NCBI RefSeq assembly: GCF_004959935.1 | Contig: NZ_SMYN01000002.1 | Span: 363,919 to 401,109, forward strand | DNA: 37,191 nucleotides | Source of the DNA: Falsirhodobacter xinxiangensis | GTDB lineage: Bacteria > Pseudomonadota > Alphaproteobacteria > Rhodobacterales > Rhodobacteraceae | Direction of reading: 5' to 3' | The notes under the pieces: model-generated | What the model was told of the DNA's origin: nothing | What the model saw: the letters and a program-made list of their open reading frames with translations, nothing else | Database searches by the model: none | Translations under genes and position numbers: made by a program | Shown here: positions 21,666 to 37,124 of the stretch, piece by piece | How the letters are laid out: each line of letters starts with the position of its first letter | Numbering within the stretch: the first letter of the stretch is position 1

Positions 21666-22339
21666 ACATCCTCGCGCGTCAGAACGAAGCCACGCCCGCG
21701 CAAGGTGCGCAGGGCCAGCCCGCAGGTGGACAAAGGCGGCAGCTTGCGCCGCAGATAACCGAGATAGACATCGACGACGTTCTCGGTCGATCCGCCATGC
21801 GGTGCCCAAAGCCGGTCGAAGATCTCGCCCCGCGTCAGGACGCGTCCGGGGTTCCGCATCAGAAAGGCCAGCAATTCCCCTTCGCGTTCGGTCAGCACGA
21901 TGCGCCGCTCGCCCAGAACGCTGCGGCTGGCGGGATCGAAACGCAGGCCGCCCAGCCGCAGCACCTCCTCGCGCGGGGCGGCGCGCTTCAACTGCACCCG
22001 CAGCCGCGCAACCAGTTCGGCCATCTGGAAGGGCTTCACGATGTAATCGCCCGCGCCGGCATCCAGCCCTTCGGTGCGATCCTCGACCCGGTTGAGCGCC
22101 GACAGGACGATGGCGGGCATGTCATGGCCGCGCAGGCGCATTTCTTCCAGAAGGCGTGTGCCGCGATCGTCGTCCAGCATCATGTCCACGATGGCGGCGT
22201 CGAAGGTTCCCTGGGCCAGCCGGGCCAATGCCTCGTCCACGCCCGGCTCCCACACGGTCATGTATCCTTCGGCGCCAAGGCCGCGCTGAAGCAGCGATGC
22301 GATGTCGGGGTCATCCTCGACGATCAGGATGCGGGTCAT
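21662..22339 (-). CDS. OmpR-family response regulator
   Basis: The 225-residue regulator has an N-terminal receiver (acidic pair EDD at 8-10, phospho-acceptor Asp52 in AAIVDMMLDDD, Lys102 in IVKPFQ). A winged-helix DNA-binding domain follows from ~residue 125 (LRFDPASRSVLGERRIVLTEREGELLAFLMRNPGRVLTR, then ENVVDVYLGYLRRKL). Its start overlaps the stop of the membrane kinase gene, so the two form a cognate pair. In methylotrophs the MxbD-MxbM type pair controlling mxa genes has this build, but membership of that specific family is inference. Confidence 0.93.
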   Translation of the reverse strand: MTRILIVEDDPDIASLLQRGLGAEGYMTVWEPGVDEALARLAQGTFDAAIVDMMLDDDRGTRLLEEMRLRGHDMPAIVLSALNRVEDRTEGLDAGAGDYIVKPFQMAELVARLRVQLKRAAPREEVLRLGGLRFDPASRSVLGERRIVLTEREGELLAFLMRNPGRVLTRGEIFDRLWAPHGGSTENVVDVYLGYLRRKLPPLSTCGLALRTLRGRGFVLTREDV

Positions 22340-23724
22340 GCGGCCTCCTCGGCCCGGTGGGCCAGCGGCAGGGTTATGGTCAGGCGCAACCCGATCCCCG
22401 GGCTGTCCAAGGCAAGGGTGCCGCCATGCGCTTCGATCACCCAGCGGGCAAGCGCGAGGCCGACGCCGAAGCCGCGCCCGCCGCCCTTGGCGAACCGTTC
22501 GGTCATGGCGCTGCCCGGCGGCAGGCCGGGGCCGTCGTCGGTGAAGGTGACGGTGCCATCTGCGGCTTCGATGCGCAGGTTCGATCGTGGCGCGTGGCGG
22601 GCGGTGTTCTCCATGATCCCGGCAAAGACCTGCCGCAGCCAATCGGCATCGCCCCGCACCATCGCGGGCGCGATCCGCGTCTGGACCACGACGCCTGCGC
22701 GGCGCAGGACCGGGGCAAGGTCGGCCTCGGCCGCGGCGATGACGGCTGGCAGATCGACGGCGGCGCTTTCAAGATCAAGCTGGCCGCTGTCGGACCGGGC
22801 GATGCGCAGCAGATCCTCGATCCGGCGATACAGGCGCTGCGCCCGCGCCTGTATGGTGGCAAAGCTGCCGCCAAGCTCCGCCTCGCCCATGATGACGGTC
22901 AGGGGGGTGCGCAATTCATGGCTGACATCAGCGAAGAAACGGCGGCGGCGGGCATCGACGGCGGACAGGCGGGCGTTTGCCTCCCGCAGTTCCTCGGTCC
23001 GGGCGGCGATTGTCGCCTCCAGCCGCCGCTGGCCCCGGTCCAGTCGGTTAGTCCGGCGGCGGATGCGCGCCAGTGCCAGCGAGAGTTCGTCATGCGCCGT
23101 GTCGGGGCCGACGCCCGCCAGACGCAGCCGCCGGATCAGCGGGCGCAGCAGCAGCAGATGCAGCAGCGCCAGAACCAGCGGTGCCGCCACGGCAATGCCG
23201 ATGGCCAGAGCGCGCAGACGCTGGCGCAGATGACCCATCGCCTCCATCGCCGCTTCCCTGCGTCTTGCGTCCTGCTGGATCTGGCCCGCGATCACGGCGG
23301 GCACCTGCGCGGCATAGAAGCCGATGGCCGCCGTCGCCTCGGGCGAGGGAAGCGGATGGCGCGACAGGCTGGATTGAAGCTGGGCGAAATGGCCGCGCAG
23401 GCTGGCGACGACCATGCGCTGCCCTGCGCGATCGCGGGCGGCGGGCGCTGCGGCGATATCCTCGGCCACCAGCGCATCCAGAAGGTCCAGCGTGGCGGTG
23501 ACGGCGACATCCCCGATCATCTCGCGAGCGCCAAGACGGCCCATGACCCATTCGTTCACCCGCGCCGACAGGCTGGAATAGCTTTCGATCCGGTGCTGCG
23601 CGGCCATCGCCTCGGCCGCCAGACGTTCGGTGCGTTGCAGGCCCACGACCGCGACCACCGCCGCCGCAACGGCCAGCGCGGCCAGTGCCGCCGCCCCCAG
23701 AGAAAGACGCGCGCGCAGGTTCAT
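22336..23724 (-). CDS. Membrane sensor histidine kinase
   Basis: The 462-residue kinase has two membrane helices (residues ~7-30 and ~173-193) enclosing a ~140-residue, mostly helical periplasmic sensor. A coiled coil at ~205-255 leads to the H-box FADVSHELRTPLTVIMGEA (His269). The ATPase domain has N-box IMENTARHAP, FTDDGPGLPP and GFGVGLALARWVIEAHGG. It phosphorylates the overlapping OmpR-type regulator. The ligand is unknown; the neighbourhood suggests methanol, formaldehyde, lanthanide or redox state. It overlaps the next gene upstream by 4 bp. Confidence 0.92.
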   Translation of the reverse strand: MNLRARLSLGAAALAALAVAAAVVAVVGLQRTERLAAEAMAAQHRIESYSSLSARVNEWVMGRLGAREMIGDVAVTATLDLLDALVAEDIAAAPAARDRAGQRMVVASLRGHFAQLQSSLSRHPLPSPEATAAIGFYAAQVPAVIAGQIQQDARRREAAMEAMGHLRQRLRALAIGIAVAAPLVLALLHLLLLRPLIRRLRLAGVGPDTAHDELSLALARIRRRTNRLDRGQRRLEATIAARTEELREANARLSAVDARRRRFFADVSHELRTPLTVIMGEAELGGSFATIQARAQRLYRRIEDLLRIARSDSGQLDLESAAVDLPAVIAAAEADLAPVLRRAGVVVQTRIAPAMVRGDADWLRQVFAGIMENTARHAPRSNLRIEAADGTVTFTDDGPGLPPGSAMTERFAKGGGRGFGVGLALARWVIEAHGGTLALDSPGIGLRLTITLPLAHRAEEAA

Positions 23725-25025
23725 CGCACCCCCCGCAGCAGCCCGTTGACCGCCTCGCGCAGTGCCGTCTCGGCCACCGGCTTTTCCAGCACCGCCGCGC
23801 CCAGATGGCCGGATGCCTTGCGGATCGCATCCGCGCATTCGCCGCTGACGATCAGCGCCGGAACCGCCGACCCCAATGCAGCCCGGACCGAGGCGATGGC
23901 ATGAACGCCCGTGTCTCCGTGCTCCAGCCGATAGTCGGTCAGGATGACGTCGGGGCGGAACCCCCGTTCCAGATGGCGCAGCGCCGCGACCGTGCCTTGG
24001 GCATGCGCCACCGACATCCCCCAGCTTTCCAGCAGGAAGACGAAGGCCTGCCGCATGTTCGGATCGTTCTCCACCACCAAGGCCGAGGATTGCGCGAAGA
24101 TGCCCGGCATCTGACGCCCCGGCGCGGGCCGCGCGTCCACAAGGCACACCCCGCCGACCAGCGGCAGGCGCACGCGGAACAACGATCCGCGTCCGGGATG
24201 GCTGCGCACCTCCAGCCGGTGGTCAAGCTGGGCGCAGGCGCGGTTGACGATGGACAGACCAAGCCCCATCCCCGGCACGTCGGACCGCGACAGACGCTCG
24301 AACTCGTTGAAGATGCGGCGCTGATCGGCGGGGGCGATGCCGGGGCCGGTGTCATGCACCTCCAGCCAGATCGCGTCGCCGTCGCGGCGCGCACCGACCA
24401 GCACGCGCCCGCTTTCGGTATATTTCAGCGCGTTCGAGATCAGGTTCTGCGCGATCCGCCGCAGATAGACCGGGTCCGACGTCACCACCGCCGAGGATGG
24501 CACGAAGCGCAGATCCAGCCCCGCCGTCAGCCCCTGCATGTCAATCGACAGCCGCTGGAACAGACGCCAAAGCGAAACGGGCGCGGGGTTCACATCCAGC
24601 TTGCGCGAATCCAGCCGGGCGATTTCCAGAAGCGCGCGGATCAGTTCCTCGGCGCTTTCGAAATTGGCGTTGATGCGTGCGACGAGGTCGCGTTGCCCCG
24701 CATCCTGCGCCACCTCGCCCAGATGCGACAGGAACAATTTGGCCGCCGACAGGGGTTGCAGCAGATCGTGGCTGGCAGCGCGCAGAAAGCGTGACTTCGC
24801 GCGGTTCGCCTCCTCGGCGGCGGCGCGGGCGGTGGCGAGTTCGGCGTTGATGGCCGACAGTTCCGCCAGCGCGCGTTCCAGATCGCGGTTGCGGGCCAGC
24901 ACCTCCTTTTCCAGAAGCGCGGCGGTGCGGGCCAAGGACCATGTGGAACTGCGTTCCGCGTCCAGCTGGTCGATCCTGCGGATCAGGGCGGCGTTGATGC
25001 GGCGCAGTTTCATCGTGTCGGTCAT
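23721..25025 (-). CDS. Cytoplasmic hybrid histidine kinase with C-terminal receiver
   Basis: The 434-residue protein has no membrane segment. A long N-terminal coiled coil (residues ~5-75) precedes the H-box AASHDLLQPLSAAKLFLS (His86), which is of the HDLLQPL subtype. The ATPase domain has NLISNALKYTESG, DTGPGIAP and GMGLGLSIV. The C-terminal receiver (~313-434) contains VVENDP and phospho-site Asp364 in ILTDYRLEHG. It follows the FIST gene with a 4-bp overlap and precedes the membrane kinase. NahK/ErcS'-type kinases in pseudomonad ethanol-oxidation regulation have a similar build; the likely role here is control of quinoprotein genes through the NarL-type regulator. Confidence 0.92.
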   Translation of the reverse strand: MTDTMKLRRINAALIRRIDQLDAERSSTWSLARTAALLEKEVLARNRDLERALAELSAINAELATARAAAEEANRAKSRFLRAASHDLLQPLSAAKLFLSHLGEVAQDAGQRDLVARINANFESAEELIRALLEIARLDSRKLDVNPAPVSLWRLFQRLSIDMQGLTAGLDLRFVPSSAVVTSDPVYLRRIAQNLISNALKYTESGRVLVGARRDGDAIWLEVHDTGPGIAPADQRRIFNEFERLSRSDVPGMGLGLSIVNRACAQLDHRLEVRSHPGRGSLFRVRLPLVGGVCLVDARPAPGRQMPGIFAQSSALVVENDPNMRQAFVFLLESWGMSVAHAQGTVAALRHLERGFRPDVILTDYRLEHGDTGVHAIASVRAALGSAVPALIVSGECADAIRKASGHLGAAVLEKPVAETALREAVNGLLRGVR

Positions 25026-26131
25026 GCGCGCACCTCGGGTGGAAGGAAGGCAAGGCCGACGAAGGTGTGGTTCACATGGATGCCGCGATGCTGTTCGCCA
25101 TAGGTGTTGAACCCGGCCACGTTGTAATCGTGATAGAGCCTCGCAACGATCCCCTGCTGCCCTGCCCGCTCCAGCGCGATGCGGCGCAGGATGCAGTCGA
25201 AGCCGAGGATCAGCGTCGCCCCGGCCAGCCGCGACAGCCGCTCCTCCAGCCCGCAGGTCAGATCTTCGGCGCGGCCTATGGTCATCACCTCGCCCGTCGC
25301 GACCGAGGACATGAGCCGTAGCCCGCCGCCCTCGGTCACTTCGGATATGGCACGCACGAATTGCTGCCCACCGATCCGCACCAAAAGCGGAAATTCGGCG
25401 AAATGCGCGGGGCCGAGGTCCGCTCGCACCGCACCGATCAGCCGGGCATATTCGTCGGCGGCGGGTTCGGCGTCGATCTCGAGGATCAGCCGTTCCTCGG
25501 GGCGGGCATCGGTGATGACAAGCCGGGTGGGCGTGGGGCTGATATGATCGAAGATCACCTCCTCGATCCGGAAATCCGTCTCCATGAGGCAGAAGACCGC
25601 GCCATCCACCGCGCGCCCGTCCAGCGCCAGATGCGTGCGGCCAAAGCGCAGGCCGTCCCCCGCCGATCCGCCCAGAACCAGCAGCCCCGGAAGCGTCGCG
25701 TCGATCATCGCGCTGACCAATTCCTCGCGCTGGCTCAGCCCGTCGATCAGAAGGATGCCGAAGCGCGACCGCCCCGGCACCCTGCGCAACCCGTCGGAGG
25801 CCGAACGCAGCGCCCCCATCCATTGCAGCGCCCCTGCATCGTGAAGGCCCCGCAGCGGCACCGCGCAGACGCTGAAATGCGCCGCCGGCAGCCCGATCGC
25901 GACAACCCCGTCGCTGTCATAGCTGCCGAAAGCGAACCCGCCCGCGGACGAACATCCCATGATCCGCGCATCGGCAAACCGCTCTCGCAGATCCAGCGAC
26001 AGCGGCGCCAGCTCCTCGCCATCCGAGGCGAACAGCATCACGGCGGCAAGCGGCAGGCCGTCGAAGGCCGCAGCGATCTCCTCGGCCATTGCCGCTACGG
26101 GGCCGCAGGTCCTGATGACTCGCGGGTTCAT
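25022..26131 (-). CDS. FIST domain signal protein
   Basis: The 369-residue soluble protein carries FIST_N (with MGCSSAGGFAFGSYDSDGVVAIGL and LVLGGSAGDGLRFGRTHLALDG) and FIST_C (VRIGGQQFVRAISEV, and the final FNTYGEQHRGIHVNHTFVGLAFLP). FIST modules are predicted intracellular sensors that bind small ligands, perhaps amino acids, and pass signals to kinases. It lies 2 nt after the NarL-type regulator's stop and overlaps the hybrid kinase, so it is probably the sensory input of that kinase. No enzymatic motif was seen. Confidence 0.9.
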   Translation of the reverse strand: MNPRVIRTCGPVAAMAEEIAAAFDGLPLAAVMLFASDGEELAPLSLDLRERFADARIMGCSSAGGFAFGSYDSDGVVAIGLPAAHFSVCAVPLRGLHDAGALQWMGALRSASDGLRRVPGRSRFGILLIDGLSQREELVSAMIDATLPGLLVLGGSAGDGLRFGRTHLALDGRAVDGAVFCLMETDFRIEEVIFDHISPTPTRLVITDARPEERLILEIDAEPAADEYARLIGAVRADLGPAHFAEFPLLVRIGGQQFVRAISEVTEGGGLRLMSSVATGEVMTIGRAEDLTCGLEERLSRLAGATLILGFDCILRRIALERAGQQGIVARLYHDYNVAGFNTYGEQHRGIHVNHTFVGLAFLPPEVRA

Positions 26132-26133
26132 GA

Positions 26134-26838
26134 TCAGCGGACGAAAAGCCGCGCCCTGTTTGCCAGCAGCGCCACCTGCGTGCGATTGCTGACATTGATC
26201 TTGGACATGATCGCCGCGATATGGGTCTTCACGGTCGCCTCGGCGATGGACAGCTCGTACGAGATCAGCTTGTTGGGACGCCCCTGGCAGATCAGGCGCA
26301 GAATGTTCATCTGCTGCGGCGTCAGCGTCGCGAAATCGCGGGCCAGCGCGGCGACGGCGGCATCCTCGCCCTGATCGTCGGGGTCATAGGCATCCGGCGT
26401 GACGATCCCGCCCGCCCACATCGTCTCGAACGCTTCGATCATCCGGCTGCGTGCGAGGGTTTTGAGGACGTAGCCACGCACCCCCGCCGCCAAGAGCGCG
26501 GCAACGGTGCGGCTTTCAAATTCGGCCGAGATGACGGTGATCGGCGCATCCCCGACCTGCATCTTCAGCGCAAGAACCCCTTCGACCCCCGCCACATCCG
26601 GCAGGTTCAGGTCGAGCACGATGGCATCCGGCACGCCATCGGCGCGGATGCTGGCCTGCGCGGCGGCAAGGCTGGCCGCCGTCCGCACCCGGCGCAGGCC
26701 GAAGGCATGGGACAGCGTGACGGTCAGCGCATCGCACATCAGCGGATGGTCGTCGACGATAAGGATATCGCAGACCGACTGGCTGTTCGCACCGCGCGCG
26801 ACATCGCTTCCGGAATCCCGGATCGGTAACTGTTGCAT
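26134..26838 (-). CDS. NarL/LuxR-type response regulator
   Basis: The 234-residue regulator has a receiver (acidic IVDDHP at 27-32, phospho-Asp76 in AIVLDLNLPD, conserved Lys in GYVLKTLARS). A C-terminal helix-turn-helix of the LuxR class includes LTPQQMNILRLICQGRPNKLISYELSIAEATVKTHIAAIMSKI. The family includes FlhR of Paracoccus, MxcE-like regulators and AgmR/PedR/ErdR of pseudomonads, which switch on PQQ alcohol dehydrogenases. It is first in an operon that continues into FIST and hybrid kinase genes. A ~20-residue N-terminal extension before the receiver is slightly unusual; the next in-frame ATG would cut into the receiver, so ATG 26838 is kept. Confidence 0.92.
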   Translation of the reverse strand: MQQLPIRDSGSDVARGANSQSVCDILIVDDHPLMCDALTVTLSHAFGLRRVRTAASLAAAQASIRADGVPDAIVLDLNLPDVAGVEGVLALKMQVGDAPITVISAEFESRTVAALLAAGVRGYVLKTLARSRMIEAFETMWAGGIVTPDAYDPDDQGEDAAVAALARDFATLTPQQMNILRLICQGRPNKLISYELSIAEATVKTHIAAIMSKINVSNRTQVALLANRARLFVR

Positions 26839-26959: not shown

Positions 26960-27529
26960 TCAGTCGATACGGGCCGCGACCGCGCGACCGATGGCAAAGG
27001 CGCGCTGTTCAAGGATGACGGGCGTCTCGCACACATAGGTCAGCGACTGCTGCCGGTCGAGGAAGATGCGGGTGGACCAGTCGATCTCGGCCTCGGCGGC
27101 GTCGATGGCGTCGAAATCGGGCGGATCGGCGGCGCTCAGGCGGTCGAACTCGATGCGCTTTTGCTTGATGGTCGCGTCCAGCGCGGTCTGCTTGTTGGCA
27201 TAACGCGTGATGCCCGACATGACGCGGTCGCGGGCAAGGTTGATGTGATCGAAGGTCGCAAGATACAGCGCGGTCAGATCGCCGGGGTAATCGGCGATCA
27301 ACGCCTCGACCTCGGGCATGGGGGTGCGGCGCAGGGCGATGCGGGAAGCGACGGCCTGCACCTCGGGGGTTTTCGCCAGCGCGGTCGTGGCCTCGTCCGG
27401 CAACGGTCCCGCCCAGACCTGCGCCAGCGACAGATGTGGCACGCGGCGCTGGATGCAGGGCCAGTCGCCGCCCTCGGGGGCTGCCAGCGCGGGGGTGGCA
27501 ATCAGCATGGCGATCAGGATCTTGAACAT
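26960..27529 (-). CDS. Exported helical protein, last gene of lut/ped-type transport operon
   Basis: The 189-residue protein has a signal peptide (FKILIAMLIATPALAAPEGG) and a mature part that looks helical, with two cysteines (WPCIQRR near the new N-terminus and YVCETP near the end) that could pair. It follows the permease gene after 9 nt. In the Methylobacterium lut cluster, as I recall it, lutG encodes an exported protein in this position, so this may be the LutG counterpart; that rests on synteny. Function unknown, probably periplasmic. Confidence 0.78.
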   Translation of the reverse strand: MFKILIAMLIATPALAAPEGGDWPCIQRRVPHLSLAQVWAGPLPDEATTALAKTPEVQAVASRIALRRTPMPEVEALIADYPGDLTALYLATFDHINLARDRVMSGITRYANKQTALDATIKQKRIEFDRLSAADPPDFDAIDAAEAEIDWSTRIFLDRQQSLTYVCETPVILEQRAFAIGRAVAARID

Positions 27530-27538
27530 CGGTTCCTC

Positions 27539-28324
27539 CTATCTGCGGCGCCAAAGCCCTTTTTCGGGGTTATACATGAACACGGTCGCACCGAAGAAGA
27601 TCGCGGTGCAGACCAGCACGACCGCCAGCGCCACCGGCTCCAGCTTCAGGTAAAGCGCGAAGCGGATCAACTCCACCGCATGGCTGAAGGGGTTGAAGGC
27701 GCAGATGTCGTGCAGAAGCGGGCTGGCATCGCGCATCCGCCACAGCGGGTAAAGCGCGGTCGAGGCGAAGAACATCGGAAAGATCACAAAGTTCATCACC
27801 CCCGCGAAATTCTCCAGCTGCCGGATGGTGGACGAGATCAGAAGGCCCAGCGAGCCAAGCATGACCCCCGACAGCATCAGCGCGGGCAGAACGGCCAGAT
27901 ACCCCACCGCGGGTGGGCGCACATCCCAGAACCACGCGACGGCCAGAAAGGCATAGACCTGTATGACGGACACCAGCACCCCCGCGACCAGCTTGGACCC
28001 CAGAAGAAACCAGCGCGGGAACGGGCTGACCAGCAGCGTCCGCATCGCCCCCGTTTCCCGGTCATAGACCATCGAAAGCGAGGATTGCATGCCGTTGAAC
28101 AACTGGATCATCCCGCACAGGCCGGGGACGATATAGACCTCATACAGCACATAGGTCTGATAGGGCGGCGTGATCGACAGGCCCAGCACGGCGCGAAACC
28201 CGGCGGCGAAGATGAACAGCCAGACCAGCGGGCGGACCAACGCGGCAAAGAATCGCTCGCGCTGATGGGTGAAGCGCAGAAGCTCGCGGCTGGCGATGCC
28301 GAGGAAGACGGTCAGCCAGCGCAT
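27539..28324 (-). CDS. ABC-2 type permease of the PQQ-associated (PedC/LutF-like) transporter
   Basis: The 261-residue membrane protein has about six helices and the ABC-2 architecture: amphipathic start FLGIASRELLRFTHQRERFFAALVRPLVWLFIF, then FNGMQSSLSMVYDRETGAMRTLLVSPFPRWF. It forms the channel for the overlapping ATPase. ABC-2 permeases of this subgroup recur beside PQQ alcohol dehydrogenases; PedC in Pseudomonas putida and LutF in Methylobacterium have been tied to lanthanide uptake. It overlaps the ATPase gene by 13 bp. Confidence 0.88.
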   Translation of the reverse strand: MRWLTVFLGIASRELLRFTHQRERFFAALVRPLVWLFIFAAGFRAVLGLSITPPYQTYVLYEVYIVPGLCGMIQLFNGMQSSLSMVYDRETGAMRTLLVSPFPRWFLLGSKLVAGVLVSVIQVYAFLAVAWFWDVRPPAVGYLAVLPALMLSGVMLGSLGLLISSTIRQLENFAGVMNFVIFPMFFASTALYPLWRMRDASPLLHDICAFNPFSHAVELIRFALYLKLEPVALAVVLVCTAIFFGATVFMYNPEKGLWRRR

Positions 28325-29004
28325 GTCATCTCCAGAAACTCGGTCGTCAGGTCGGTGCCGGCGGGACGATGCGCCAGAACGCGGCCCTTGTGCAGGATCA
28401 CCACCGGATCGTCCGGCGCGATTTCATCGAACACATGCGTCGCCCACAGGGCCGAGACGCCCTGCGCCCCCAGCCCGCGCACGATGGACAGCACATCGCG
28501 GCGCGAGGCGGCGTCGAGGCCCGCCGCCGCCTCGTCCAGCAGCAGAAGGGTGGGTTCGTGGATCAAGGCGCGCGCGATTTCGGCCCGGCGTTGCTGGCCG
28601 CCCGAAAGCGTGCGGGCCTTTGCGTGGAGCCGGTCCGACAGGCCGACCATCGCCAACACCTGATCGATCCGCGCATCGGGGCGCGCCAGACCGTGCAGCG
28701 CGGCGTGATATCGCAGATTCTGGCGCAGGGTCAGGTCCAGATCCAGCGCGCGGCTTTGAAACACGACACCAAGGCGGGCCAGCGCCTGCCGCGGCTGGCG
28801 GCGAATGTCGAAACCCGCCACCTCGATCCGCCCCGAGGTGCTGTCGTAAAGGCGGGTGATCAGGGAAAACAGCGTCGTCTTCCCTGCCCCGTTCACGCCC
28901 AGAAGCGCGGTGAAAGACCCCTTTGGCACGTCGAAGCTGACATCCTCCAGCGCGGGGATGCGCCCGAAGCGGTGGCTGACATTTTCGACGCGAAGGGCAC
29001 TCAC
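28312..29004 (-). CDS. ABC ATPase of the PQQ-associated (PedB/LutE-like) transporter
   Basis: The 230-residue ATPase shows Walker A GVNGAGKTT, Q-loop VVFQSRALD, signature LSGGQQRRAEIARALIHEP, Walker B LLLLDEAAAG and switch His in WATHVFDEI. The start is taken as GTG 29002-29004 (VSALRVENVSHRFG), overlapping the stop of the small exported-protein gene as GTGA. A longer frame to 29133 exists but reads through that upstream gene without a family match. The ribosome site is close to the GTG, so the start is the least certain part. It works with the ABC-2 permease. Confidence 0.88.
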   Translation of the reverse strand: MSALRVENVSHRFGRIPALEDVSFDVPKGSFTALLGVNGAGKTTLFSLITRLYDSTSGRIEVAGFDIRRQPRQALARLGVVFQSRALDLDLTLRQNLRYHAALHGLARPDARIDQVLAMVGLSDRLHAKARTLSGGQQRRAEIARALIHEPTLLLLDEAAAGLDAASRRDVLSIVRGLGAQGVSALWATHVFDEIAPDDPVVILHKGRVLAHRPAGTDLTTEFLEMTCAG

Positions 29005-29237
29005 TCCTTGCGGCGCTCCACTTCCTTGTATTCGGCGTCCATCTTGACGTCGTATTGGCCGTCGGCGCAGATCACGTCGTCCAGATCGAAGATGCCATCC
29101 TCGATTTCGATGTTGGCGCTGTCCACTTCGCATTGGACTTCGGCCAGCGCCGCGTCGATGGCGGCGATCTGTTCGGGTGTCGCGTCCTGCGCGAAGGCGG
29201 GGGTTGCAAGAAAGATCAGCGGGATCAGGCGTTTCAT
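29001..29237 (-). CDS. Small exported PepSY-like protein
   Basis: The 78-residue protein has a signal peptide (LIPLIFLATPAFAQDA) and a ~60-residue mature part with many acidic residues: IDAALAEVQCEVDSANIEIEDG, then FDLDDVICADGQYDVKMDAEY. This beta-strand-rich, acidic pattern resembles short PepSY domains. Two cysteines could form a disulfide. It lies in the position I recall for lutD in the Methylobacterium lut cluster. The cluster of Asp and Glu residues makes metal binding plausible, which is inference. Confidence 0.8.
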   Translation of the reverse strand: MKRLIPLIFLATPAFAQDATPEQIAAIDAALAEVQCEVDSANIEIEDGIFDLDDVICADGQYDVKMDAEYKEVERRKE

Positions 29238-29240
29238 GGG

Positions 29241-29669
29241 TTATCCGATCGTGAAGGTTGCGCGTTGCGATTCCCCCGACGATCCGGGGATCGACAGGGT
29301 GTAGGTGCCGGGGGTGATGGCGATGAAGGAAATCTCCGCCTCGCCCGCCGCGTCGAATTCCAGCGAATGCACGCCCATCGGGCGGATCTCGATGTTGTTG
29401 ATGACGATCTCGTTGATCCAGATGGCGCGGAAGAAGTCGCCGCCCGACAGCGCGAGTTCGGCGGACCCATCAGCAACGATCTTCATGCGGTAATAGGCGC
29501 CCGATTTCAGCGCATAGGGTGTCTCGGCCACCGGCTTGCCGGACCCGAGCGTCAGGGGGGCCAGTTCCACCCGGTTCGCCTTGCCCATCAGCCCCGCGAA
29601 GCCATAGTCGAACTGCTGTGCCGATGCGGGCAGCGCCGCCAGCAGAAGTGCCGCGATGATGCGTTTCAT
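29241..29669 (-). CDS. Exported beta-rich protein of the transport operon, function unknown
   Basis: The 142-residue protein has a signal peptide (MKRIIAALLLAALPASAQ) and a beta-sandwich-like mature part: YRMKIVADGSAELALSGGDFF, INEIVINNIEIRPMGVHSLEF, then ISFIAITPGTYTLSIPG. The pattern is cupredoxin-like, but the usual copper Cys is absent. It sits 12 nt after the propeller gene and 3 nt before the PepSY-like gene. By position it would correspond to lutC as I recall the lut order. No enzymatic motif was recognised. Confidence 0.78.
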   Translation of the reverse strand: MKRIIAALLLAALPASAQQFDYGFAGLMGKANRVELAPLTLGSGKPVAETPYALKSGAYYRMKIVADGSAELALSGGDFFRAIWINEIVINNIEIRPMGVHSLEFDAAGEAEISFIAITPGTYTLSIPGSSGESQRATFTIG

Positions 29670-29681
29670 GCTTTCCCCCCT

Positions 29682-30632
29682 TTATTGGATTGCGACCACG
29701 CCCCAGGGCTGTTCGCCCACGGGCACGGATTTGACGACCTCGTTCGTCGCCACGTCGATGATCGAGATGTCGTTGGAATTGCCGTTGGTGGTGTAAAGGA
29801 ACTTGCTGTCGGGCGAGAAGCCAAGCTGCCAGACGCGCTGGCCGACCAGCAGATATTCCTCGACCTCCCACGTCTCGCCATTCACCACCGCCACGCGGTT
29901 CGACGGGCCGAGCGCGACATAGATCTTGCTGTCATCCGGCGTCAGGCGCACGCCCACCGGCTGAAGCGCCTCGGGCAGAACGCCCGGCACGTCAAAGGTG
30001 ATCTTGTGAACGATCTCATTTTTCGCGGTGTCGATGACGGATACTGTCCCGCCGATCTCGGCCGAGACATAGAGATGGCTGCCGTCGCTGTCGTATTGAG
30101 CAAAGCGCGGGCGGCTGTCCACCAGCACGTTCGCGACGATCTCATAGGTCGCGGTGTCGATCATGTGGGCCATGTTCGTGGTTTCGGATGTGTTCACCAC
30201 GATGGAGCCGTCGGGGTGGACGCCCATGCCTTCGGGCTCCACCCCGACCGGAACCTCGGCCAGCACCTGCCGCGTGTTCACATCGACGACGGTGACGATG
30301 TTGTCATCCTCGTTCGCGATATACAGCGGGTTCCCCGAGGGGTGCAGCACGAACAGTTCCGGATCGGGGCCGGACGGCAGGCTCGGCAGTTCCTCATAGC
30401 TCGCGGTGTCATAGACTTTGACAAGGTTGTCGTCCGACGCGCAGACATAGAGGAACTTCCCGTCTGGCGAGGCGGTGATCCCGCGCGGGCGCTGCATTCC
30501 TTCGATGGTGTGCAGGATTTCGTGGGTCGCACCGTCAAGGACGGTGATCGTGTTGCCCTTTTCATTGCTGACAAATATCTTTTCGGCATGGGCCGGTGCG
30601 GCTGCGAAGGCCAATATCGCAAGCAGTCTCAT
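29682..30632 (-). CDS. Exported YVTN beta-propeller protein associated with PQQ catabolism
   Basis: The 316-residue protein has a signal peptide (MRLLAILAFAAAPAHAEK) and about seven YVTN-type blades, with repeats such as KIFVSNEKGNTITVLD, FLYVCASDDNLVKVYD, PLYIANEDDNIVTVVD and LYVSAEIGGTVSVID. Members of this family accompany PQQ dehydrogenases and the same ABC transporter throughout proteobacteria (PedA2- and LutB-like). ATG 30630-30632 overlaps the end of the binding-protein gene by 4 bp; the longer upstream frame is antisense-free but lies inside that gene. Probably a periplasmic binding or assembly factor; ligand unknown. Confidence 0.88.
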   Translation of the reverse strand: MRLLAILAFAAAPAHAEKIFVSNEKGNTITVLDGATHEILHTIEGMQRPRGITASPDGKFLYVCASDDNLVKVYDTASYEELPSLPSGPDPELFVLHPSGNPLYIANEDDNIVTVVDVNTRQVLAEVPVGVEPEGMGVHPDGSIVVNTSETTNMAHMIDTATYEIVANVLVDSRPRFAQYDSDGSHLYVSAEIGGTVSVIDTAKNEIVHKITFDVPGVLPEALQPVGVRLTPDDSKIYVALGPSNRVAVVNGETWEVEEYLLVGQRVWQLGFSPDSKFLYTTNGNSNDISIIDVATNEVVKSVPVGEQPWGVVAIQ

Positions 30633-31795
30633 CTTCCCTCCATGTTGCATTCCGTCTCGGGGCGGTCGATTCCCAGCGTGTCCATCTGCGAAGTCTGGTG
30701 CAGGTATTCGGGTTGTGGCGAGACCGAGGCGACGACATTCCCCGAGGCCAGCAGGATCGGCTGGCGAAGCTGCCCGTCCCAATCGCGGAAGGACAGCGCC
30801 TGCCCCTTGAAGGCGGCAAGCTGGAAAGCATCGCCGCGGATGTAATCCTCGATCACCTGCGGGTCGGTGGAATTGGTGCGGGTCGCCGCCTCGCCCAAGG
30901 ACCGCAGGGCCATCCAGACCTGAAAATCCTGATCGCGGGCGGGACGCAGGGCCTGCTTCTCGAACCGCGACTGCCATTGCATCGCGCCCCATGCCTCGTG
31001 CGCGGGGTGCCAGTTCACGGGCGTCAGGCCCGCCGATCCGGCGACGGGACGCGCGTCCCAGGTGTGGAACGGCAGCCAGTCGGCAAAGACGCCGGCATGG
31101 TCGGCGGCGATCACGATGTCATGGGCAGCGGCCCGCTGCGTGAAGGCGGGCATCTGCGCCTGCACCTGCACATGGCCGCTGTCGGTTCGGCGCGCGCCGC
31201 CGGTATCCTCGAAAGTCCGCGTTTCGGTTATCTTTGCCCCGAACTTGGTGGCCGCGCGGCGATAGGCATCTGCCAGCGCGGTATCCTCGGGGTGGCTGCC
31301 TTCGATCAGGAACCATTCGTCCCAGCGTTTCCACATCAGGAACTGCGCCAGCGCGTCGGTCAGCATCGCATCGCTGGGCGCGGTGTGCAGCAGGTTCGCG
31401 CGGCAATCGACCCCGCGCAGCCGATCGCTGGTATCGGCGGCGTTGAAGACCAGCCCGCCCATATCGGCAAGCCGCACGGTGGTGTCCGCATCGGCCAGCG
31501 TCACAATGAAACGGATGCCGCCGTCCAGCAGGCGCTGCATCTCGGCCTCGGCCGTTTCTAGCGTGGCGCGGACCTCCAGCGTGGTGAAGGTCTGCCCCAT
31601 GAAGCCGCCCGTGGTGGCATTGTCGGCGGTGCCAAGCGTGCCGCCCGCAAAGCCCAGATCGTCGGGCATCAGATCCAGCCGCGAGATCGGCAGCGGACCC
31701 GGCTTGTCCACGCGGATCACTGCCGCCACGATCTCTTGCGCCAAGGCTGGCTGTCCAAACGCCACGAGCGCGGCGAATGCCACTGTCTTCCGCAT
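30629..31795 (-). CDS. Periplasmic binding protein of the PQQ-associated ABC system (PedA1/LutA-like)
   Basis: The 388-residue protein has a signal peptide (MRKTVAFAALVAFGQPALAQE) and a type I periplasmic-binding fold in two lobes, for example GGIRFIVTLADADTTVRLADMG, then WFLIEGSHPEDTALADAYRRAATKFGAKI. Proteins of this family lead the PQQ-associated ABC operon; LutA of Methylobacterium is the periplasmic component of a lanthanide uptake system. It is first in a seven-gene operon and is divergent from the mxaD-like gene. ATG 31793-31795 is chosen because it gives a normal signal peptide; the frame extends 7 codons further upstream. The mature protein is rich in Asp and Glu, consistent with cation handling. 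Confidence 0.86.
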   Translation of the reverse strand: MRKTVAFAALVAFGQPALAQEIVAAVIRVDKPGPLPISRLDLMPDDLGFAGGTLGTADNATTGGFMGQTFTTLEVRATLETAEAEMQRLLDGGIRFIVTLADADTTVRLADMGGLVFNAADTSDRLRGVDCRANLLHTAPSDAMLTDALAQFLMWKRWDEWFLIEGSHPEDTALADAYRRAATKFGAKITETRTFEDTGGARRTDSGHVQVQAQMPAFTQRAAAHDIVIAADHAGVFADWLPFHTWDARPVAGSAGLTPVNWHPAHEAWGAMQWQSRFEKQALRPARDQDFQVWMALRSLGEAATRTNSTDPQVIEDYIRGDAFQLAAFKGQALSFRDWDGQLRQPILLASGNVVASVSPQPEYLHQTSQMDTLGIDRPETECNMEGR

Positions 31796-31957: not shown

Positions 31958-32479
31958 ATGCGCCTGTTCACACTGGCCCTGGCGGCCACGACCCTGATTG
32001 CCGGAATGGCCGAGGCGCATGGCCCCTCGCGCCAGAAAACCACGCAGGACGTGGTGCTGAACGCCACACCGGACGAGGTCTGGCAGGCGGTGGGCGATTT
32101 CGGCGACCTGTCATGGATGCCGGGCGTCGCCTCGGTCGATGCGCCGCAGGGGAACGAGAAGGACGGCACCCGCACCGTCACGCTGGACAGCGGCACGGTG
32201 CTGACCGAGGAGTTGACGAAATACGATCCCGAAAAGCGCACCATGTCCTTCCGGATGACCAAGGACGATATCGAGGCGATCCCGGTCACGAATTTCTCGA
32301 CCGTGCTGACGGTGAAGGATGACGGCGGCAAGGCTCTGGTGGAAATGCGCGGCGGCTTCTATCGCGGGTTTCCGAACAACGACCCGCCGCCCGATCTGAA
32401 CGACGACGCGGCGGTTGCGGCGGTGAATGCGCATTACCGCGCGGCGCTGGACGGGCTTGCGGAACGCTTCGGCCAGTGA
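31958..32479 (+). CDS. mxaD: MxaD-like periplasmic SRPBCC protein
   Basis: The 173-residue protein has a signal peptide (RLFTLALAATTLIAGMAEAH) and an SRPBCC/START-like fold: TTQDVVLNATPDEVWQAVGDFGDLSWMPGV, then GTRTVTLDSGTVLTEELTKYDPEKRTMSFRM. MxaD in Methylobacterium and Paracoccus stimulates electron transfer between methanol dehydrogenase and its cytochrome cL. Here the only dehydrogenase in view is XoxF, so it may serve the lanthanide enzyme. Its stop overlaps the start of the second propeller gene as TGATG. Confidence 0.85.
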   Translation: MRLFTLALAATTLIAGMAEAHGPSRQKTTQDVVLNATPDEVWQAVGDFGDLSWMPGVASVDAPQGNEKDGTRTVTLDSGTVLTEELTKYDPEKRTMSFRMTKDDIEAIPVTNFSTVLTVKDDGGKALVEMRGGFYRGFPNNDPPPDLNDDAAVAAVNAHYRAALDGLAERFGQ

Positions 32480-33318
32480 TGGATCTGGCGGCCATCACCT
32501 CGCAGAATGCAGGGGTGGTGACGATCGTCACGGATGGCGCGGTGACGGCGTCCGTCCCGGTTCCGGGCAAACCCGCCGCCGTGGCCGTCGATCCGGTGCG
32601 CGGCATCATCCATGTCGTCGCGGTGGAGACGAAGCTGCTGCACCGCATCGCCCCCGACGGGCGCGAGATCGCCCGCATCCCCCTGCCCGGCGCCCCTTTC
32701 GGCGTGGCGGTGGACCCGACGAACGGGCATTCGCTGGTATCGGATTGGGAAGGCAGCGGGATCGTCGAAGTGGGCGATGCGGTGCTGCGCGAGATCGCCA
32801 CCGGGGCCGCGCCCTCCGGCATCGCGGTAGCGGACGGGTTGATCGTGACCGCCGACCGGGATGCGGACCAACTGACGCTGATCGGTGACCAGACGCGGCA
32901 CGTCGCTGTCGGCCATCACCCGTTCGGCGTCACGATCCATGACGGGCACGCCTTTGCCGCAAATGTGCTGTCGGAGACGGTGTCGGTCGTCGATCTGGAC
33001 AGCGCGACGCTGGTCGCAACCATCCCCGTGGGCGAGCGGCCCTATGCCATCGCCTTCGCAGCCGGACGCGGGTTCGTGACCAACCAATACGAAGAAAGCG
33101 TCACGGTCTTCGATGCAGCCTCTTGGCAGGTGATCGGCACCATCGAGGTTGGCGAATATCCCGAAGGGATCGCGCCCTACGGCGACCGCCTTCTGGTCGC
33201 CAACTGGTTCTCGGACACCCTTTCGGTGATCGACCCGATGGCGATGCAAGTGACCGAAACGCTGGACATGCCCGCAGGCCCCCGCGCCTTCGGCAGCTTC
33301 ACCGCCACCCTGCCCTAG
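32479..33318 (+). CDS. YVTN-type beta-propeller protein without a signal peptide
   Basis: This 279-residue propeller has YVTN-like blades such as HSLVSDWEGSGIVEVGD, AFAANVLSETVSVVDLDSATLV, GFVTNQYEESVTVFDAAS and LLVANWFSDTLSVID. Unlike the propeller in the divergent operon, it starts MDLAAITSQNAGVVTIV and shows no signal peptide, although its neighbours are periplasmic. ATG 32479 overlaps the mxaD-like stop; GTG 32476 beside it is possible and does not add a signal. Its TAG shares a CTAG with the xoxJ stop. Function unknown, probably binding or assembly in quinoprotein metabolism. Confidence 0.83.
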   Translation: MDLAAITSQNAGVVTIVTDGAVTASVPVPGKPAAVAVDPVRGIIHVVAVETKLLHRIAPDGREIARIPLPGAPFGVAVDPTNGHSLVSDWEGSGIVEVGDAVLREIATGAAPSGIAVADGLIVTADRDADQLTLIGDQTRHVAVGHHPFGVTIHDGHAFAANVLSETVSVVDLDSATLVATIPVGERPYAIAFAAGRGFVTNQYEESVTVFDAASWQVIGTIEVGEYPEGIAPYGDRLLVANWFSDTLSVIDPMAMQVTETLDMPAGPRAFGSFTATLP

Positions 33319-34115
33319 CTTTTCAGCGCCGTACCGAAATCGTCCAGGATCGGGACCCCGGCATCCTTCAGAATCTGGTCGATTTCCCCCTGATTGCGGC
33401 GGATGACCGAGTTCAACTCGTGTTTCCAGTTCAACTCGCCCGCGCGCACACCCATGGTGATGCGATAGAACAGCTTCGGCGTCGCGGTTTCGTGGATCAG
33501 CGGCACGGCGATCATATCCTCGCGCGCGCGGGCCAGCGGGCCACCGATTGGACCCCACAGGATCGCGGCGTCGATCGTGCCCGCCTCCAGATCCGCCAGC
33601 ATGTCGCCCGCGGGGTTTTCCACCCGCCGGTCCACCACCAGATCGTATCCCTTGGCCAGCCCGATCAGGCCCAGTCGCGCCAGATGCGTCGCGGGCGGCG
33701 TGCCGGCGATGACGCCCACATGCTTGCCTTGAAGGCGCGGATCGGTCAGGCGGTCCACCCCTTCCAGATCGCTGCCGCGTTTCACGATCAGAACATGGGT
33801 CGAGGTGTAATAGTGGTTGGTGTTCAGAACCAACTCATGCCCTTGGGCGAAACCGATGATGACATCGCATTTCGCCGCCTGAAGCGTCTGGCGCACGAAG
33901 CCCGACACCATCGGAAACCAAGTATAGGTCAGCGGAACGTCCATCTTTTCCGCCATCAACTCCGCGATCTTGTTCTCGAAACCCGATCCGTCCTCGTGCG
34001 ACATCGGGGCGTTGGCGGGGTCGGCGCAGACGCGAAAGGCGGTGCGGTCCACGAGGTCGGCGACCTGCGCGTTCGCAGGCAGGGCCATAGCTGCGGCAAG
34101 CACCGCCCAGCGCAT
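33315..34115 (-). CDS. xoxJ: XoxJ/MxaJ-like periplasmic solute-binding protein
   Basis: The 266-residue protein has a signal peptide (MRWAVLAAAMALPANAQ) and the two-lobe periplasmic-binding fold seen in MxaJ and XoxJ: FRVCADPANAPMSHEDGSGFENKIAELMAEKM, then ADLEAGTIDAAILWGPIGG. XoxJ is proposed to bind apo-XoxF and help PQQ or lanthanide loading and activation. It begins 3 nt after the xoxG stop and always travels with xoxF and xoxG. No ABC permease partner is encoded next to it, as expected for a chaperone and not a transporter. Confidence 0.92.
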   Translation of the reverse strand: MRWAVLAAAMALPANAQVADLVDRTAFRVCADPANAPMSHEDGSGFENKIAELMAEKMDVPLTYTWFPMVSGFVRQTLQAAKCDVIIGFAQGHELVLNTNHYYTSTHVLIVKRGSDLEGVDRLTDPRLQGKHVGVIAGTPPATHLARLGLIGLAKGYDLVVDRRVENPAGDMLADLEAGTIDAAILWGPIGGPLARAREDMIAVPLIHETATPKLFYRITMGVRAGELNWKHELNSVIRRNQGEIDQILKDAGVPILDDFGTALKS

Positions 34116-34118
34116 CCC

Positions 34119-34631
34119 TCAGCCCCCCATGCAGGCGGTTTCCGCCTCGGTGAAGGCATCGGACTTCTCTGCCCGTTTGGCCGGACGCCCGCGCGGAACC
34201 TCGTCCGTGCCGCGCGCCAGGAGATAGGTATAGATGTCGTCCAGATAGCACATGACGTTGGGGTTGGTGCCAAAAGCGGGCATCACCGAATTCTCCGACG
34301 CGCCGACCTTCTGCCGCCCGCTGGCGACGACCCCTTGGAAGTCGTAGTAATCCATATGCAGCGCCGAAGTCTTCAGTGCGGGCGCATAGGTCGAACCCTC
34401 GCCATCCGGGCCGTGGCAGACATGGCATTCCGCGTGATAGCGGCGGTAACCCGAAAAGGTCGGCCAATCGACGGTGCCATCCTCGGCGATCTCGGGCACG
34501 GGTGTGCCTTCGGCGTTGAAGCTGCGGATGCCGTCATTGGAATCCACCGCCATATCCTTCTGCTGCGCGGCGGCACCCCCGGCCCAAAGCGCGATCAGCG
34601 CGGCGGCAAGGGCCATGCGTGGCTTCGTCAT
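34119..34631 (-). CDS. xoxG: XoxG-like cytochrome c (cytochrome cL type)
   Basis: The 170-residue protein has a signal peptide (ALAAALIALWAGGAAAQ) and one haem c site, ECHVCHGPDGEGST (~residues 75-79 for CHVCH). The distal methionine is in SVMPAFGTNPN. It accepts electrons from XoxF and passes them to the terminal cytochromes. ATG 34629-34631 is chosen with GGGAGGAG upstream; the frame goes five codons further. The order xoxF, xoxG, xoxJ is conserved in methylotrophs. A terminator lies between xoxF and xoxG, so cytochrome expression may be lower than xoxF. Confidence 0.92.
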   Translation of the reverse strand: MTKPRMALAAALIALWAGGAAAQQKDMAVDSNDGIRSFNAEGTPVPEIAEDGTVDWPTFSGYRRYHAECHVCHGPDGEGSTYAPALKTSALHMDYYDFQGVVASGRQKVGASENSVMPAFGTNPNVMCYLDDIYTYLLARGTDEVPRGRPAKRAEKSDAFTEAETACMGG

Positions 34632-34710
34632 ACGCTCTCCTCCCAAAGAGTCTTTCAGGGAAGGTTAGTGCGGGGGCCGGCACGTGTCCCTCAACCTTTA
34701 GTCGGGCATG

Positions 34711-34759: not shown

Positions 34760-36556
34760 TCAGTCGGGTATCGCAAACACCGTCAGCGAGCCGCCCAGCG
34801 CCGTGTAATCGGAAAGCGCGGCATAGCCCCCCACTGCGCCCAGACCGTCATTGGCATTGGTCAGACCCGCCGCAAGGCCGATGCCCGCCCAGCCGCCGGT
34901 GCCCGACAGCACGGCCACATACTGCTTGCCGCCATGTTCATAGGTCATCACGTTGCCGATGATACCGGACGGGGTCTTGAACTTGTAAAGCTCCTCGCCG
35001 GTCGTTGCATCGACAGCCTTCAGATACCCTTCCAGCGTTCCATAGAAGACCACGTCGCCCGCCGTCGCCAGCGCGCCCGACCAGACCGAGAACTGCTCGG
35101 GCAGCGACCACTTGATCTCTCCGGTCACGGCGTCCCAAGCGATGAAGTTGCCCATGCCGCCATGGCTGTCGGGTGCCGGATACATCGACAGCGTCGCCCC
35201 GACATAGGGCTGGCCGGCGCTGTAGCTGACGCGGAACGGCTCGTAATCCATGCAGACGTGGTTCGTCGGCACATAGTTCAGCTGCGTCTTCGGCGAATAG
35301 GCCGAGGGCTGCTGGTCCTTGGTGCCAAGCGCCGCCGGGCAGATGCCGGTGGAGTTGACGTCCTCGCCGTTCTGCTCGGTCGAGTATTCGGCGACCACCT
35401 GCGGGCGGCCATACTGGTCGCTCTCGGGGTCCATGTTGACCTCGGTCGCCCAGTTCACGGCCGGATCGTATTTTTCGGCCACCAGCAACTCGCCCGTCTC
35501 GCGGTCCATGGTATAGGCGAAGCCGTTGCGGTCGAAGTTCACCAGCAGCTTGCGCATGGTGCCGTCGATCTCGCGGTCGATCAGAACGTTCTCGTTCACG
35601 CCGTCGAAGTCCCATTCGTCATGGGGGGTCTTCTGGTAGAACCATTTGGCCATCCCGTCATCGGGATCGCGGGCCATGATGGTCATCGACCACTTGTTGT
35701 CGCCCGGACGCTGGCTGGGGTTCCATGTCGAAGGGTTGCCGGTGCCGTAATAGACGAGGTCCAGTTCCGGATCATAGGTGAACCAGCCCCAGGTGGTGCC
35801 GCCGCCGATCTGCCACTGGTCCCCCTCCCAGCTGTCGATCGAGGAATTGGCCCCGATCGGCTTGCCCAGAACCATCGTGTTCTCGGGATCGACCAGCATC
35901 TCCTCGTCCGGGCCGGTGGAATAGGCGCGCCAGGCCTGAGTGCCGTCCGCGATGTTATAGGCGGTGACATGCCCCCGCACGCCGTATTCCCCGCCCGAGA
36001 TGCCGACCAGCACCTTGTCCTTGATCGGGATGACGGTTGCGGTGTTCGTCTCGCCCTTGGCCGGATCGCCGTTCACGACGCTCCATTTCACGTCACCGGT
36101 GGTGGCGTCCAGCGCGACCAGCGTCGTGTCGGCCTGGTGCAGGAAGATGGTGTTGTCGGCAAAGGCCAGCCCGCGATAGACCGTATCGCAGCACATCACG
36201 CCGATCACGTCGGCATTCTGTTCCGGCGTGTATTTCCACAGGATCTTGCCGTCGTTGTTCAGATCCAGCGCATAGACGATGTTCGGGAACGGCGTGTGGA
36301 CATACATCACGTCGCCGATGACCAGCGGCGCACCTTCATGCCCGCGCAGCACCCCGGTCGAGAAGGTCCATGCGACCTGCAGATCGCCCACGTTATCTTT
36401 GGTGATCTGGTCCAGTTCCGAATAACGGTTGCCGGTATAGTTGCCCAACTGCGATCCGAACTGCTTGGGGTCCTGTTGGATCGCCTGCAGCGAGTCGTTT
36501 GCATGGGCCGCCGAGGCAAGTAGCGCCGCGGTCAGCCCGAGCGTGAGTCTCCTCAT
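34760..36556 (-). CDS. xoxF: Lanthanide-dependent PQQ methanol dehydrogenase XoxF
   Basis: XoxF oxidises methanol (often on to formaldehyde or formate) in the periplasm using PQQ and a lanthanide, passing electrons to XoxG. The 598 residues include a signal peptide (~1-19) and an eight-bladed propeller. The vicinal disulfide is Cys122-Cys123 in [10 protein letters not shown]. Metal ligands are visible: Glu190 in SGGEYG, Asn274 in [10 protein letters not shown], catalytic Asp316 in [11 protein letters not shown], and the extra Asp318 (Asp-x-Asp). In Ca-dependent MxaF the residue two past the catalytic Asp is Ala; here it is Asp, the mark of lanthanide enzymes. GGGAGG is the ribosome site. Its own promoter region lies upstream. 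Confidence 0.97.
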
Positions 36557-36743: not shown

Positions 36744-37124
36744 CTATTGTGACTGCGCCTGTAAATAGGCCAGCAGGTTCACGCGCTCCTGCTCCTGCTT
36801 CAACCCGGCGAAGGTCATCTTGGTGCCGGGGATCACGCCCTTGGGATTTTCCACGAATTTGAGGATTTCCTCCGGCGTCCAGACATGGCCTTCCTCGCCA
36901 GCCTTCTTCATCGCTTCGGAATAGCTGAACCCCTCCAGCGTGCCGGTCGTGCGACCGACGATGTCGTGCAGGTTCGGCCCAGCGCGCGAGGGCGCATCGG
37001 CGTCGACGGCATGGCAGGCCATGCATTTGCGAAAGACCTTCTGCCCGGCTTCGGCGTCGCCTTCCTGCGCTGCGGCAAGCGCGGGAAGACAGGCAAGGAT
37101 GATGGCTAAGGTGCGGGACCGCAT
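36744..37124 (-). CDS. Class I cytochrome c (c2/c550-like)
   Basis: The 126-residue precursor has a signal peptide (LAIILACLPALAAAQ). The haem site is FRKCMACHAVD, the sixth-ligand methionine is in IPGTKMTFAGL, and the C-terminal helix is QERVNLLAYLQAQ. Size and motifs fit soluble cytochrome c2/c550, the usual shuttle between cytochrome cL-type proteins and the aa3 oxidase in Paracoccus-like bacteria. It lies directly upstream of xoxF and reads the same way, with a terminator between. Its ribosome site is AAAGGAG. Confidence 0.94.
   Translation of the reverse strand: MRSRTLAIILACLPALAAAQEGDAEAGQKVFRKCMACHAVDADAPSRAGPNLHDIVGRTTGTLEGFSYSEAMKKAGEEGHVWTPEEILKFVENPKGVIPGTKMTFAGLKQEQERVNLLAYLQAQSQ

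Follow-up and report, generated by a model that had tools for sequence, protein, structure and literature searches.

A lut-type operon beside xoxF in Falsirhodobacter xinxiangensis with a putative lanthanide-binding mini-PepSY protein in the place of landiscernin

Introduction

Two described systems stand closest to the locus reported here, the lut genes of Methylorubrum/Methylobacterium (META1p1778-1787) and PedA1A2BC of Pseudomonas putida KT2440. We analyzed a seven-gene operon of lut-like order that lies beside the gene for the methanol dehydrogenase XoxF in Falsirhodobacter xinxiangensis (assembly GCF_004959935.1). 'The window' denotes the whole stretch of DNA analyzed, 37,191 nucleotides (nt) of contig NZ_SMYN01000002.1 (positions 363,919 to 401,109 of the forward strand); positions are counted from its first letter. 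We consider it likely that the operon represents the lut system in a Rhodobacterales form that feeds XoxF, in which a lanthanide-binding protein of PepSY type, here called mini-PepSY, takes landiscernin's place. The core is of a known kind, and the exchange in its fourth position (slot 4), between lutC and lutE, seems new.

In M. extorquens AM1, lutE and lutF mutants did not grow on methanol with lanthanum (La), lutA, lutB and lutG mutants were strongly slowed and a lutC mutant mildly so, and La built up in the periplasm of mutants of the ATP-binding cassette (ABC) transporter (PMC7391723). P. putida requires PedA1A2BC at nanomolar lanthanide (Ln) levels, and uptake of a carbon substrate was argued against (PMC6839425). 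Ln binding has been reported for the lutD product (META1_p1781; PMC9260416).

Landiscernin (LanD) and the mini-PepSY of the window have in common that both are small, exported and encoded by a gene that lies between lutC and lutE. Among PepSY proteins, the closest precedent for binding of lanthanide is LanPepSY (LanP) of Methylobacillus flagellatus; like mini-PepSY, it is small and periplasmic and belongs to lanthanide methylotrophy. Compared by description only, LanP has 19 kDa and two PepSY domains, whereas mini-PepSY has one domain, about 61 mature residues and two Cys. LanPepSY has up to four Ln sites (PMC11845868) and, among methane oxidizers, occurs mainly in Gammaproteobacteria (PMC12482762). 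UipA of Microbacterium (PDB 7ath) is likewise a PepSY protein, described as a metal binder, and a weak fold match; unlike mini-PepSY, it is described as transmembrane anchored, with tandem PepSY domains, and as connected with uranium tolerance. Since LanPepSY and UipA are PepSY proteins that bind f-elements, we count them in favor of a lanthanide-binding mini-PepSY.

Results

The seven open reading frames (ORFs) of the operon all lie on the minus strand, from 31795 to 26960 (Table 1), and the intergenic gaps from A-B to F-G are −4, 12, 3, −4, −13 and 9 nt. Gaps of −13 to +12 nt are expected of one transcript, and re-measurement bore out the seven-gene operon, with genes overlapping or at most 12 nt apart, that a first-pass annotation had read from the DNA letters. 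That annotation had also placed the ABC core in the Lut/PedA1A2BC family. When checked with NCBIfam hidden Markov models (HMMs), LutA, LutB, LutE and LutF each exceeded the curated cut-off of the respective model of the pyrroloquinoline quinone (PQQ)-associated ABC family (TIGR03863, TIGR03866, TIGR03864 and TIGR03861), LutE by two bits only. For LutC, the slot-4 protein and LutG, neither Pfam nor NCBIfam gave a family match at E 0.001. BLASTP against a Methylobacterium locus (L129) gave 44% for LutA, 60% for LutB, 58% for LutE and 68% for LutF; LutC matched at 47% over 77 aa (E 1e-18) and LutG at 38% over 206 aligned columns (E 1e-32), which makes these two homologues of the Methylobacterium proteins, in agreement with the lut-like order first proposed. 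The claimed lutABCDEFG order therefore stood for A, B, C, E, F and G and fell for slot 4, whose protein has no detectable landiscernin homology and is not LutD.

The Methylobacterium lut genes share with the window the order A-B-C-x-E-F-G, with homologous A, B, C, E, F and G, and in five of six loci (L129, L138, L141, L147 and L148; not seen in L122) a divergent pair of MxaD-like and YVTN genes upstream of lutA. They differ in that mini-PepSY replaces LutD/landiscernin in the window, no lutH or lanM follows, xoxFGJ is adjacent and regulators lie behind lutG. PedA1A2BC resembles the window in its binding protein, propeller, ATPase and permease near PQQ dehydrogenases, and in having neighboring genes (PP_2663-2665) of NosP-like, hybrid kinase and LuxR type. 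In contrast, the accessible accounts describe it as four genes, without LutC, mini-PepSY or LutG, and the dehydrogenase of the window is XoxF.

Upstream of lutA lie xoxJ, a methanol-related cytochrome gene and xoxF, with the divergent MxaD-like and YVTN pair in between. XoxF matched PDB 6oc5 best (1027.6 bits), and its WDFDG motif aligned with that structure's sequence; we take the second Asp of this motif to be a mark of lanthanide use. The linkage to an Asp-x-Asp XoxF that the first-pass annotation had pointed out was thus upheld. XoxF is the only methanol/ethanol-family PQQ dehydrogenase above cut-off in the source genome (3.97 Mb, 99.6% complete), where one further 811-residue frame reached 151 bits against the methanol/ethanol-family model, under its cut-off of 480; pqqE (PqqE) is present. 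Taken together, family membership and gene linkage make the predicted role of the core operon, a lanthanide importer feeding the neighboring XoxF, well supported. For the source organism itself, we infer the direction of transport and the lanthanide cargo from homologues in other organisms.

LutA scored above cut-off in 87 of 295 genomes of the same family and in 2 of 7 of the genus (source genome included in both), so that the importer is common but patchy in this group. For locus comparisons, a permease alignment scan of genome contigs confirmed at least 578 stretches; the best 80 were kept and, with the window, make 81 loci, which lean to close relatives because of this selection. Iterated profiles of LutG and LutC matched 75 and 43 of the 81 (window counted). 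The nearest relatives found were Paracoccus, Haematobacter, Falsigemmobacter and similar, consistent with the Rhodobacterales-type genome first suggested.

We then compared the two occupants of slot 4. The Methylobacterium slot-4 protein matched the landiscernin structure PDB 9c8w (E 1.1e-18); because of this match and the operon position, we take landiscernin to be LutD. The slot-4 protein of the window had no BLAST match in the Methylobacterium loci. A LanD profile built from four Methylobacterium members found all six Methylobacterium loci, two of them outside the building set; it gave a single partial match in the 295 family genomes (E 5.3e-4) and none in the source genome. Its marginal match to a Falsigemmobacter mini-PepSY (E 2e-3) is taken as putative signal-peptide similarity. 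Landiscernin has what we take to be an all-helical fold. Given the lack of similarity to the Methylobacterium protein and the different predicted fold, lutD was ruled out as the identity of the window's slot-4 gene.

What the window encodes instead is a 78-aa precursor with a signal peptide by eye and a mature part of about 61 residues, of which 19 are Asp or Glu and 5 Lys or Arg (isoelectric point 4.05), with two Cys. An AlphaFold2 model from four sequences (mean predicted local distance difference test score, pLDDT, 93.6) has a helix at 4-16 followed by four strands. A helix followed by antiparallel β strands, as in this model, is presumably the PepSY layout, and relatives of the protein are labeled PepSY domain-containing in public records. 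The first-pass description of a small acidic PepSY-like protein agrees with a PepSY-type α-β protein by model and with the low isoelectric point. The Falsigemmobacter orthologue reached 19.5 bits against PF13670 (PepSY_2), under the gathering cut-off of 24.3. UipA (7ath) was the ninth Foldseek match (template modeling score 0.62 over the query, E 1.8), and the mini-PepSY profile, run against PDB sequences, returned a single chance-level match (E 9.5). Among the records listed in a literature search by titles and abstract openings, mostly of journals without subscription, there was no publication on mini-PepSY in lut operons.

Among the family genomes, a four-sequence profile matched mini-PepSY in 29 of 295. 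We call a match strong at E 1.2e-13 or better, and 24 were strong, window counted. For 22 of these, a LutA above cut-off is no more than about 7 kb away (three, in G131, G041 and G008, judged by coordinates alone), and the remaining two (G077 and G250) lie directly behind lutC. Weak matches in five further genomes (E 7.6e-10 to 7.5e-4) come either from contigs that carry no LutA or from genomes that have none. A sixth weak row is from the end of a G222 contig and differs from the linked copy of that genome in its first letter only. We counted neighbors in 34 loci chosen for carrying mini-PepSY, made up of 20 regions, 10 plasmid stretches (from 10 of 16 records), the loci L072, L128 and L146, and the window. 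The lut gene closest upstream of mini-PepSY is lutC in 28 of the 34, with a spacing between −4 and 131 nt, whereas mini-PepSY lies inside or at the edge of the lut cluster without being behind lutC in L197, L202 and L146.

Bearers beside lut genes include Paracoccus alcaliphilus, Haematobacter massiliensis, Ruegeria sp. AD91A, Sagittula stellata, Mameliella alba, Sinorhizobium fredii CCBAU 83666, Falsigemmobacter intermedius and Rhodobacteraceae SC52 (no LutA found within its stretch). The Rhizobiaceae evidence consists of plasmid records and locus L146. At G077:C4:172376 (L190), lutC and mini-PepSY stand together like a single unit, with the lutA of their contig about 105 kb away.

Alignment of the lut-linked members showed Cys36 and Cys57 in 29 of 29, compared with 4 of 11 unlinked relatives for each. 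An acid occupies position 39 in 26 of 29 linked and 1 of 11 unlinked sequences, and positions 44, 51, 53, 54, 63 and 78 in all 29 linked ones. The unlinked set is small (n = 11) and includes the G222 fragment, one probable chance match and an S. medicae copy with lut-type sequence. Within this alignment, the Cys pair and Asp39 are what distinguishes the lut-linked group, and the protein is probably disulfide-bonded.

Its usual neighbor, LutC, gave an AlphaFold2 model (35 sequences, pLDDT 86.6) of cupredoxin-like fold. Foldseek matched this model to 244 PDB structures with E of at most 0.001, and copper nitrite reductases headed the list (one at E 4.5e-6). In the alignment, no conserved Cys/His/Met copper set was found by eye, and Glu 54, 77 and 87 of the aligned fragment are invariant in all 35 rows. 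On the model, we read LutC as a cupredoxin that may have lost its copper; a metal role of the invariant glutamates is only a suggestion.

Discussion

If the operon works as we consider likely, lanthanide would reach the periplasm across the outer membrane and be held there by LutC, mini-PepSY or both. LutA would capture it in the periplasm, perhaps in chelated form, loaded from LutC or mini-PepSY, and LutF would pass it into the cytoplasm with LutE supplying the power. LutB, LutC and LutG would serve as periplasmic accessories. The metal binding of mini-PepSY is inferred only; the protein may hand lanthanide to LutA or keep it available for XoxF. We propose, with less confidence and short of calling it probable, that mini-PepSY represents a new family of single-domain, disulfide-linked lanthanide binders of about 61 residues, which would replace landiscernin in many Rhodobacterales and in Sinorhizobium fredii and pair with a LutC that is cupredoxin-like, has lost the copper ligands and has kept invariant glutamates. 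To our knowledge, natural proteins that bind lanthanide are few (LanM, LanD and LanPepSY are among those described). If the proposal is true, one periplasmic lanthanide carrier has given way to an unrelated protein at the same place in the operon, and so tiny a protein would make a convenient scaffold for rare-earth separation. The mini-PepSY partner also makes the role of LutC testable.

Several observations weigh against a lanthanide importer with a lanthanide-binding mini-PepSY. ABC-2 permeases are frequently exporters. For mini-PepSY itself, no Pfam match was listed up to E 5, so that it stayed under the PF13670 cut-off, and every Foldseek match was weak, the best having E 0.58 and none reaching 0.001. 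The six acidic positions that are invariant in the linked group are also acidic in 8 to 10 of the 11 unlinked relatives; since these keep most of the acids, some of the pattern is shared by PepSY_2 relatives at large. Three of the 34 loci carry mini-PepSY without a lut cluster (L183 from S. medicae, L223 from Sphingomonas and L224 from S. meliloti). The protein is moreover a minority trait, strong in 24 of 87 LutA-bearing family genomes, with 63 of 87 without. Among 40 genomes of the class with LutF above cut-off, the source genome alone had a strong match. The class-wide search of 289 genomes gave, besides the window, four weak matches, all in genomes without LutF above cut-off and for that reason counted as unlinked.

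Slot 4 can also be empty. In Paracoccus, 12 of 13 measured loci have a lutC-lutE gap of up to 98 nt, which leaves no room for a slot-4 gene; the gap in L082 is 259 nt, with no mini-PepSY match, and L079 of that set falls outside the 13 measured. In the accessible part of the M. extorquens screen report, lutD was not a hit (PMC7391723). Slot 4 therefore looks dispensable, as it is empty in most Paracoccus loci and lutD is absent from the screen hits.

The passage across the outer membrane raises a further objection, since no LutH or LanM orthologue was recognised in the source genome. The LutH of L129 as query found no match there, in a search without a positive control. A TonB plug search gave nine matches, all of them on contigs of the genome other than that of the window (C12), in line with the initial remark that the window holds no TonB receptor (lutH). 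The best of eight of these nine receptors was 26% to LutH over 509 columns, compared with 39% over 883 columns between two LutH; this is family-level similarity only, and a diverged receptor could serve. S. meliloti 2011 is described as likewise without an obvious LutH (PMC12628762). Lanmodulin was sought with a single query from L147, an EF-hand protein encoded near lutH and taken to be LanM by its position; the one match in the source genome was at noise level (E 0.11) on another contig (C2), and the window held none, again as first noted. The protein matched, G000:C2:63699 (L151), was set aside as LanM on its EF loop positions: the loops have no Pro at position 2, which we take to be a lanmodulin criterion. 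That protein is exported, has four EF-hand loops and lies ahead of a sigma-factor-like ORF (by eye).

We weighed three other explanations. Mini-PepSY could be a signaling partner that carries no metal, binds a kinase sensor domain and tunes two-component control of lut and xox. The kinase DbfS is under the direct control of DbfQ, which is itself small, periplasmic and of PepSY type, and PepSY genes occur near two-component genes more than 60-fold above chance (PMC12714742). Two-component genes also lie behind lutG in the window and in several relatives, and the kinase at 22336-23724, hydrophobic at its start as judged by eye, might carry a sensor in the periplasm. However, the conserved neighbor of mini-PepSY is lutC, in the 28 loci counted above, and not a kinase, and the nearest kinase of the window (NahK-like) has no membrane segment by eye. 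We regard a signaling role as unlikely.

The close pairing with lutC, kept even about 105 kb from lutA in G077, could alternatively reflect a structural, metal-free protein that acts as chaperone or inhibitor of LutC or LutA, a classic role of PepSY. The Methylobacterium slot otherwise holds a lanthanide-binding protein, and LutC does without a slot-4 gene in the 12 Paracoccus loci; both points make such a role doubtful in our judgment. A non-lanthanide cargo (a different metal, PQQ or some compound related to alcohols, for example) or a role in export is improbable: NCBIfam names the family only as PQQ-dependent alcohol dehydrogenase system, several roseobacters have a second ABC set in the operon and Sinorhizobium relatives of mini-PepSY adjoin copper and iron genes, but the lut and PedA1A2BC genetics outlined above, including the argument against carbon-substrate uptake, point to lanthanide, and the linked dehydrogenase is of XoxF type.

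Gene neighborhood

Table 1. Features of the window (positions in nt from its first letter).
Feature	Position	Strand	Length and evidence
LutA-type periplasmic binding protein	30629..31795	-	388 aa; TIGR03863 455.6 bits, cut-off 413.6
LutB/PedA2-type exported YVTN beta-propeller	29682..30632	-	316 aa; TIGR03866 504.3 bits, cut-off 287.3
LutC, exported, predicted cupredoxin-like fold	29241..29669	-	142 aa; homology to Methylobacterium L129
Mini-PepSY protein, slot of LutD/landiscernin	29001..29237	-	78 aa; lut-linked group, AlphaFold2 fold
LutE/PedB-type ABC ATPase	28312..29004	-	230 aa, GTG start; TIGR03864 304.3 bits, cut-off 302.25
LutF/PedC-type ABC-2 permease	27539..28324	-	261 aa; TIGR03861 398.9 bits, cut-off 241.35
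LutG, exported protein	26960..27529	-	189 aa; homology to Methylobacterium L129
XoxF methanol dehydrogenase	34760..36556	-	TIGR03075 745 bits; best PDB match XoxF 6oc5
XoxG-type cytochrome c	34119..34646	-	TIGR03874 236.7 bits, cut-off 161.75
XoxJ-type periplasmic protein	33315..34115	-	TIGR03871 283 bits, cut-off 212.15
SRPBCC/MxaD-like exported protein, divergent from lutA	31958..32479	+	PF10604 97.6 bits; 49% to L129, same position
Second YVTN propeller protein	32476..33318	+	PF21783 41.4 bits; 41% to L129
LuxR-type response regulator, ErdR-like, downstream of lutG	26134..26838	-	NCBIfam ErdR 127.9 bits, below cut-off 390
NosP-like sensor protein	25022..26131	-	NF041558 273.7 bits, below cut-off 450
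NahK/ErcS-like hybrid histidine kinase	23721..25025	-	NF041832 312.5 bits, below cut-off 400

Behind lutG, the minus strand of the window (21662-26838) carries the ErdR-like regulator, the NosP-like protein and the NahK/ErcS-like hybrid kinase, followed by a second kinase and an OmpR-type regulator. The trio, whose model scores are under the curated cut-offs, resembles PP_2663-2665 (PP_2663-PedS1-AgmR) near pedC in P. putida and recurs near lut in L086, L104, L114, L128, L186, L188, L189 and L191. A cytochrome c-550-like gene lies upstream of xoxF (36744-37124, minus strand), and such a gene is also near xoxF in L128, L182, L188, L189, L196, L200 and L204.

On the L183 and L224 plasmids, the mini-PepSY relative adjoins copC/D, YcnI and a larger PepSY protein, and in L224 also an iron ABC system. 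The second ABC set of the roseobacters (binding protein, permease and ATPase) lies between mini-PepSY and lutE in L184, L220 and L222; the same kind of insertion, judged by distance only, is found in L195-L201, L204 and L218.

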